Origin: Nitrospirota bacterium
GTDB taxonomy: Bacteria > Nitrospirota > Nitrospiria > JACQBZ01
NCBI GenBank assembly: GCA_016201865.1
Contig: JACQCA010000019.1
Span: forward strand, 1-64,000
DNA length: 64,000 nt
Direction: 5' to 3'
This document shows, piece after piece, positions 37,980 to 39,296 of the stretch. The position numbers and the translations under genes were made by a program. Numbering within the stretch: position 1 is the first letter of the stretch; each line of letters starts with the position of its first letter. The notes below the pieces were generated by a model that saw only the letters and a list, made by a program, of their open reading frames with translations, searched no databases and was not told where the DNA came from.

Positions 37980-38007
37980 GTAGGGGCGCAGCATGCTGCG
38001 CCCCTAC
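37980..38007. repeat. 28-bp perfect palindrome GTAGGGGCGCAGCATGCTGCGCCCCTAC
   Basis: Immediately upstream of the RAYT start codon. Confidence 0.9.
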
Positions 38008-38325
38008 ATAGAATGGATAACATGCCGGACCGAACAACCTATAATCGCGAAATCCACCACCGCAGATCGATTCGTCTGAAGGGATACGATTATTCTCTGG
38101 CCGGCGCCTATTTTGTGACGGTCTGCACATGGAACAAGGAATGTTTGTTTGGGGAAATTGTCGATGGTGAAATGCGGATGAATGAATATGGACGGGTGGT
38201 TCAGGATTGCTGGGATGCGATACCGCGTCATTTTCGGAACGTGTTGTTGGACGCATTTGTGGTGATGCCCAATCATGTGCATGGAATTTTGGTTTGCACG
38301 GGCACGGATGGTTCACACCCAGATC

Positions 38326-38353
38326 GTAGGGGCGCAGCATGCTGCGCCCGTAC
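38326..38353. repeat. 28-bp hairpin inside the RAYT CDS
   Basis: GTAGGGGCGCAGCATGCTGCGCCCGTAC, 1 mismatch to 37980..38007. Confidence 0.9.
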
Positions 38354-38594
38354 AATAAACAGGCGCGTTCCGGCCAACGTTATCCCGGGTTCATTGGGCG
38401 CGATTGTCCGTTCATTCAAATCCGCCGCGACCCGGCGGATCAATGTTTTGCGGTGCGCACCGGGCGTCCCGGTATGGCAACGCAATTATTACGAACAGGT
38501 CGTTCGTGACGATTCCGAAATGCACCGTGTCCGGGAATATTTCACCGGCAATCCGGCGGGGTGGTTGGAGGACGAAGAGAACCCGGTTCATTTC

Positions 38595-38622
38595 GTAGGG
38601 GCGACCGTCCGGTCGCCCCTAC
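38595..38622. repeat. 28-bp hairpin at the 3' end of the RAYT CDS
   Basis: GTAGGGGCGACCGTCCGGTCGCCCCTAC. Confidence 0.88.
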
Positions 38623-38768
38623 CATGAATGAACGCCCCGTGCCTGCCCGGATCTGCGGGATCGAAAAGGAGCAATATATCCGATCTGCATCTATTATATA
38701 TAGGGGCCGGAGGGGCGGGGAAGGAACTCCGGGCAGGAGCCGACGGTGTTCTATAGAGGCCTCGCAAA

Positions 38769-39296
38769 ATGAAAACCATCGTTTACATCGGAACCAGTCT
38801 TGACGGCTTTATCGCCCGAAAAGATGGGGAGATCGATTGGCTGGTTAAGTTCGAGAAGCCGGTGAGAGGCGACTACGCCGAATTTATAAGCAAGATCGAC
38901 GCGGTCGTAATGGGACGGGGCACGTTTGAAAAAGTCCTCACGTTTCCTTCCTGGCCTTATGAAAAGAAAGTCTTCGTGCTGAGCACCACGATTAAACAGG
39001 TTCCGGCCAAGTTAAAAAGGAAAGTAACCGTTCTTTCAATGAAGCCCAGAGAGCTGCTGGATTATCTTTCCAACGAAGGCTTTTCGAATATCTATGTTGA
39101 CGGCGGAAAGGTGATACAGAGTTTTTTAAAAGAAGACTGCATCGATGAGATGATCATTACCAAGGCCCCTGTGCTGATCGGAAGCGGCATTCCATTGTTC
39201 GGTTATCTTGACCATGATCTTCCATTCAAACATATACGGACCAAAGTATATTCCAACGGACTTGTAAAGAGCCACTACAAAAGAAAACGAAAGTGA
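38769..39296 (+). CDS. dihydrofolate reductase / RibD C-terminal-like protein
   Basis: 'YIGTSLDGFIARKDGEIDWL', 'VVMGRGTFEKVLTFPSWPYEKKVFVLS', 'IYVDGGKVIQSFL'. Confidence 0.9.
   Translation: MKTIVYIGTSLDGFIARKDGEIDWLVKFEKPVRGDYAEFISKIDAVVMGRGTFEKVLTFPSWPYEKKVFVLSTTIKQVPAKLKRKVTVLSMKPRELLDYLSNEGFSNIYVDGGKVIQSFLKEDCIDEMIITKAPVLIGSGIPLFGYLDHDLPFKHIRTKVYSNGLVKSHYKRKRK

Follow-up and report, generated by a model that had tools for sequence, protein, structure and literature searches.

A REP hairpin embedded in a subclass 2.4 RAYT gene of a Nitrospirota bacterium: a candidate cis-acting site retained at the nucleotide level

Introduction

Why would a transposase gene carry, within its own coding sequence, a palindrome of the kind that its relatives bind and cut? 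The RAYT of E. coli, TnpAREP, acts on single-stranded GTAG hairpins, which it binds and cuts (PMC3733652, PMC6006769), and neither the persistence of RAYTs nor their role in the host has been explained. In the window analysed here, a stretch of 64,000 nt from a Nitrospirota genome, a RAYT gene has one such palindrome before it, one inside it and one at its 3' end. A first-pass annotation of this DNA explained the internal copy as a recent insertion of a REP into its own transposase gene. Below, this account is set against the homologues of the gene, their loops and the REPs of their host genomes.

Anatomy of the locus

The features of the locus are listed in window coordinates.

37980..38007, no strand: upstream double-foot REP, a perfect 28-nt palindrome adjoining the start codon (pattern search, alignment, folding)
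38013..38627, + strand: RAYT / TnpAREP gene, subclass 2.4 type (ORF, NF047646, 4er8 profile match, AF2 model)
38274..38276, + strand: first His codon of the HUH motif, H85 (invariant in 69 homologues)
38280-38282, + strand: H87 codon of the HUH motif
38326..38353, no strand: internal double-foot REP in which one pair, at 38350, is broken; codons 102-111 with ATG 38022 as the start (alignment, folding, AF2 loop)
38538..38540, + strand: catalytic Tyr codon, Y173 in YFTGNP, 88 residues after H85 (homologue conservation)
38595..38622, no strand: 3' double-foot REP with a different core, encoding the C-terminal tail (pattern search, folding)

All three palindromes are of the GTAGGGGC...GCCCCTAC type. 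The positions that the first-pass annotation gave for them (37980, 38326 and 38595) were all confirmed, and its distance of 6 nt between the upstream palindrome and the start codon holds for ATG 38013, with ATG 38022 an equally possible start and the stop codon at 38625-38627. Its description of the internal copy was also borne out: this REP is read in frame within its own type of transposase gene (38326-38353), encodes RRGAACCART and is identical to the upstream copy at 27/28 positions, the lone change being a C to G at 38350 that breaks one pair. The third palindrome (38595-38622) has the same feet as the other two and the core ACCGTCCGGT, and encodes the final residues VGATVRSPLP. The pattern GTAGGGGCG..CGCCCCTAC has two exact matches in the window against 0 expected from 100 shuffles, and the internal copy escapes it because it carries the mismatch. 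Folded as RNA, the three palindromes reach -25.9, -21.9 and -26.2 kcal/mol, with z scores from -4.9 to -6.9.

The identity of the gene as a RAYT associated with REPs, as first annotated, is supported by NF047646, the 4er8 profile, conserved HUH and Y residues, and structure matches of an AF2 model. Among the 69 homologues compared, H85, H87, W152 and Q153 are invariant, and Y173, N177 and P178 are at least 90% conserved. The match to the NCBIfam equivalog NF047646 reaches 52 bits and so falls short of the cut-off of 80, because the loop splits it into two pieces; with a profile of the C-terminal part of the RAYT, which follows the loop, 4er8 (E. coli TnpArep) is recovered. A Pfam search with the long open frame and a phmmer search of the PDB with the RAYT protein returned no match, and a PHROGs search returned a single one (E 0.12). 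The AF2 model (pLDDT 84) matches ISDra2 TnpA, 4er8 TnpArep and IS608 TnpA, and places the REP-encoded residues 102-111 in a loop that links strand 85-92 to helix 125-144 and is modelled with low confidence, with pLDDT of about 50 in the loop and below 50 at residues 103-106. This loop is the beta3-alphaC insertion of subclass 2.4, and probably disordered.

The motifs of subclass 2.4 (NH[IFV]H, WQ and Y-x3-NP) are all present in the window gene, the first as NHVH and the last as YFTGNP where the subclass has YIxNNP, and the HUH-Y spacing of 88 residues from H85 to Y173 equals the median of the subclass (PMC6006769). The gene also shares with the subclass flanking and double-foot GTAG (GT[AG]G-foot) REPs and an in-frame REP between HuH and Y, in the long and variable beta3-alphaC loop; no difference in anatomy was seen. 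Judged by its motifs, HUH-Y distance, loop and REPs, the window gene is a subclass 2.4 TnpAREP (Bertels group 4). It is not the first of its kind, because Quentin et al. (2018) had described double-foot REPs in this subclass, together with predominant in-frame insertions of REPs in the stretch from HuH to Y, which they expect to affect activity little (PMC6006769). E. coli TnpAREP (4er8) and the IS200/IS605 TnpA proteins of ISDra2 and IS608 share the HUH/Y1 fold and its motifs, and hairpin recognition is seen in their solved structures; E. coli TnpAREP is placed in subclass 2.2, where in-gene REP insertions are not reported (PMC6006769). Intragenic REPs and Rickettsia palindromic elements are likewise palindromic repeats read in frame inside proteins, but they lie in unrelated genes and at varying sites (PMC3733652), whereas here a recurrent site is occupied in the transposase gene of the REP's own kind.

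REPs in the host genome

The host genome (G000) is a Nitrospirota MAG of 2.47 Mb in 97 contigs, in which REP copies were counted by pattern search. It contains 16 perfect palindromes of 28/29 nt of the form GTAGGGGCG-core-CGCCCCTAC, against 0 for the reversed control pattern, and in these the feet are fixed while the cores vary and yet remain self-complementary. The sequence GTAGGGGC-N(8-14)-GCCC has 40 matches per strand, against 2 and 7 control matches. These repeats are multi-copy, carry a GTAG foot and form a hairpin, as REPs of the GTAG superfamily do. The palindrome is thus repeated elsewhere in its genome, and distant homologues were not found to keep the internal residues without it; the opposite outcomes had been named in the first-pass annotation as grounds for giving up its reading.

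Among homologues, the embedded element takes one of two forms at one site: the minimal 28/29-nt double foot, or a full REPIN, that is, two inverted single-foot REPs and a spacer. G000 holds both, the double foot in the window gene and a 62-bp REPIN in the paralogues L019 and L020 (contigs C2 and C19), and the latter is also dispersed across the genome. Dispersed REPINs of about 50-75 bp lie at C5:9827-9888, C19:20737-20799 and C26:4064-4125 and on C40, C42, C46 and C50, and several of them are the same 62-bp REPIN that is embedded in the C2 and C19 RAYT genes. One palindrome copy, C52:20131 (L009), sits in the gap between two same-strand ORFs.

Prevalence of REPs in the RAYT loop

In a first set of 80 homologues from many phyla, the loop contains a foot-bearing palindrome in about 45, a count from a sample biased towards the loop, since the query contained it. 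Prevalence is therefore quoted from loop-blind searches. A C-terminal-only profile was run against 396 Nitrospirota genomes, and 80 loci were taken together with the window gene and its two paralogues. Fifty-nine of 69 intact Nitrospirota genes have a REP in the loop, against 0/69 for equal-length pieces of the core on either side. With a looser test and duplicates removed, an outward GTAGGGGC...GCCCCTAC pair spanning 28-134 nt is present in 56/68 Nitrospirota loops; the same 68 loops have no foot pair in the wrong order, four have no foot at all, and control segments have no pairs. In Chloroflexota, again loop-blind, the outward pair is found in 28/49 loops against 1/49 controls. Feet are missing altogether from 14/49 Chloroflexota loops and from several loops of cyanobacteria, so the embedded site is dispensable for the enzyme. 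As a general account, a recent insertion is not supported: the same loop is occupied in most homologues, across many phyla, and a REP in the loop is a standing architecture of the subclass and not a single recent accident.

The loop also varies in length among homologues. Chloroflexota loops (L232, L195, L216, L233, L235) and those of L051, L059 and L050 contain long in-frame tandem repeats, with many copies of an MDTDVMGT-like unit in L232. In cyanobacteria, which were sampled via the loop-biased set only, the short palindrome is mostly absent (L026, L038, L055, L085 and others); some of these loops have long-armed inverted repeats with decayed feet, and others nothing.

Two reading frames are used by the embedded palindrome (42 and 26 cases, duplicates included), and never the one in which the foot would give TAG. 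Selection on the encoded peptide was considered and rejected: one and the same REP occurs in both frames, and conservation extends to codons, beyond the residues they encode.

Match to flanking REPs and to RAYT lineage

Internal and flanking double-foot cores are identical in 24/27 loci (one locus counted twice), against a mean of 2.8 and a maximum of 8 after shuffling. When the loop is left out of the tree, there are 32 changes of core type (shuffled mean 49, minimum 44) and 9 of reading frame (19 shuffled). Hence, REP type follows RAYT lineage, across phyla, although core type sometimes differs between related RAYT genes. The REP of the window gene is read in frame f1 and that of its nearest tree neighbours, L036 and L077, in f0, in a weakly supported grouping; for the window gene alone, this frame leaves room for an insertion that may be younger.

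Retention at the nucleotide level

A clade of eight Nitrospirota genes with a CGGTTC-type REP (SH-aLRT 99; core proteins about 65% identical) shows how far the embedded sequence is held. Its internal 28-mers are 25-28/28 identical and in the same frame, whereas third positions at identical residues agree at about 53%. Among the six genes with an intact REP, codons at amino acid-invariant columns are invariant in 8/8 cases within the REP and 7/53 outside it; for all eight genes, including L140 and L144 with decaying internal copies, the counts are 6/7 and 6/48. A Chloroflexota gene, L203, found after the clade had been defined, has the 28-mer at 28/28 in the loop and frame of the clade; elsewhere, its codons at identical residues agree at 31-44%. 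Four REPIN-bearing genes from two phyla, picked after inspection and thus illustrative, have both 26-nt arms identical and a varying spacer.

Across all 53 disjoint nearest pairs of homologues, codons are identical in 239/294 cases (81%) within the REP and 2514/4923 (51%) elsewhere, a comparison in which independent insertions of shared-foot REPs inflate pairwise codon identity. In the 33 pairs with enough columns for a per-pair test, codon identity is higher in the REP in 29 (p 1e-5). Palindromy is also kept through paired changes, in L024/L029, in L041 and in the flanking copies of L116 and L140. A REP conserved while synonymous sites are near saturation, in an arrangement already described for the subclass (PMC6006769), speaks further against recency as a general explanation. 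For nucleotide-level conservation and for REPs confined to the RAYT locus, no report was found in the literature searched, which lay outside supplementary files and most subscription journals.

Distribution of matching REPs among genomes

Counting copies within 3 mismatches, and bearing in mind that MAGs may miss REP copies, G288 has the in-gene copy only, and the copies of G157, G381, G291, G389, G246 and G223 are all located at the RAYT locus. In G332, G170 and G404, the left arm of the REPIN occurs only inside the gene; other REP types are numerous in G404, and a few are present in G170. Dispersed CGGTTC REPs are found in G000, G285 and G023, in which no RAYT of the CGGTTC clade was identified, and G437 and G396 have both dispersed copies and the RAYT. 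This distribution would fit a cycle in which a RAYT arrives with its REP, the REP spreads and the RAYT is then lost. The CGGTTC-type REPs of G000 lie on contigs C27, C57, C70, C71, C87 and C92, with no intact RAYT of that clade identified; G396, from the same family as G000, has a RAYT with a CGGTTC-type REP inside.

Possible roles and alternative explanations

What is added here to the published picture is the retention at the nucleotide level, the loop-blind prevalence, the lineage-matched cores and the locus-confined REPs. The reading that we favour, at slightly better than even odds (about 0.55), is that this is an architecture of the subclass in which the embedded REP is retained at the nucleotide level as a cis-acting cognate site, be it regulatory, a seed, or both. 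By homology to enzymes that bind and cut hairpins with a GTAG foot, the RAYT would be a single-strand DNA nuclease of the HUH/Y1 kind; its flexible loop between HUH and the helix would tolerate a REP insert, and the hairpin would be kept as a cognate site acting in cis in the RAYT gene or its mRNA. It might serve as an autoregulatory site, bound or cleaved by the RAYT or acted on by mRNA machinery, or as a portable seed copy that holds enzyme and REP together through horizontal transfer. The two roles could coexist. The fuller claim, that the embedded REP or REPIN is under selection, regulates the gene or keeps enzyme and target together, and is the sole such site in some genomes, is put forward more tentatively, at somewhat short of even odds on the sequence comparisons at hand. 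Against a cis-acting element count the window gene itself, a single case with a frame unlike its neighbours and one broken palindrome pair, the two decaying copies of the CGGTTC clade, the loops that lack any foot, and the dispersed copies in G437, G396 and G404, which could act as donors.

One may argue that the loop is merely a tolerated hot spot: REPs would insert often in or near RAYT genes, survive where they fall in a disordered loop and a TAG-free frame, and be replaced by resident REPs as they age, all with no function. The use of two frames but never the TAG frame fits such a process, as do a loop that varies in length and also gathers tandem repeats, the occasional difference in core type between related genes, the occurrence of intragenic REPs in unrelated genes (PMC3733652) and the little impact on activity expected by Quentin et al. 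(PMC6006769). We nevertheless consider this unlikely, though it deserves serious weight, since re-insertion must account for the same site, frame and 28/28 sequence in nine genes of two phyla (two copies decaying) at near-saturated synonymous divergence, and since in several genomes, including G332, that REP has no dispersed copies on which re-insertion could draw.

The hairpin could also be kept perfect without selection, by correction of quasi-palindromes at replication or by conversion from neighbouring REPs. Palindromy that outlives paired changes (L024/L029, L041 and the flanking copies of L116 and L140) is what such correction would leave, and flanking REPs are often close by; yet correction keeps arms complementary without fixing their sequence across phyla, and conversion in G288 would lack a donor, since no second copy exists there within 3 mismatches, which makes this explanation improbable. 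That the upstream REP was recently inserted, in a single event, into the window gene is more improbable still. This view draws on the 27/28 identity of the two copies and on the frame unlike that of the nearest tree neighbours, but the same loop is filled in most homologues, and in the RAYT family of the window gene a high identity between REPs is no sign of a recent origin.

Should the REP inside the gene prove to be a conserved functional site, the transposase and its REP would make up a single, inseparable unit, and both self-regulation through the enzyme's own target and the seeding of REPs in new genomes would become directly testable. Selection on a DNA or RNA hairpin within coding sequence, independent of the peptide, would then have a clear example.

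Additional observations

In G437, the part of the RAYT that follows the internal REP is present twice, 300 bp apart (C10:11752-12293, L203), each time behind a copy of the same REP, so that the internal REP marks the bounds of a tandem duplication. In the window, the next gene 3' of the RAYT (38769-39296) encodes a product of 175 aa, which by eye we take to be RibD C-terminal/dihydrofolate-reductase-like.
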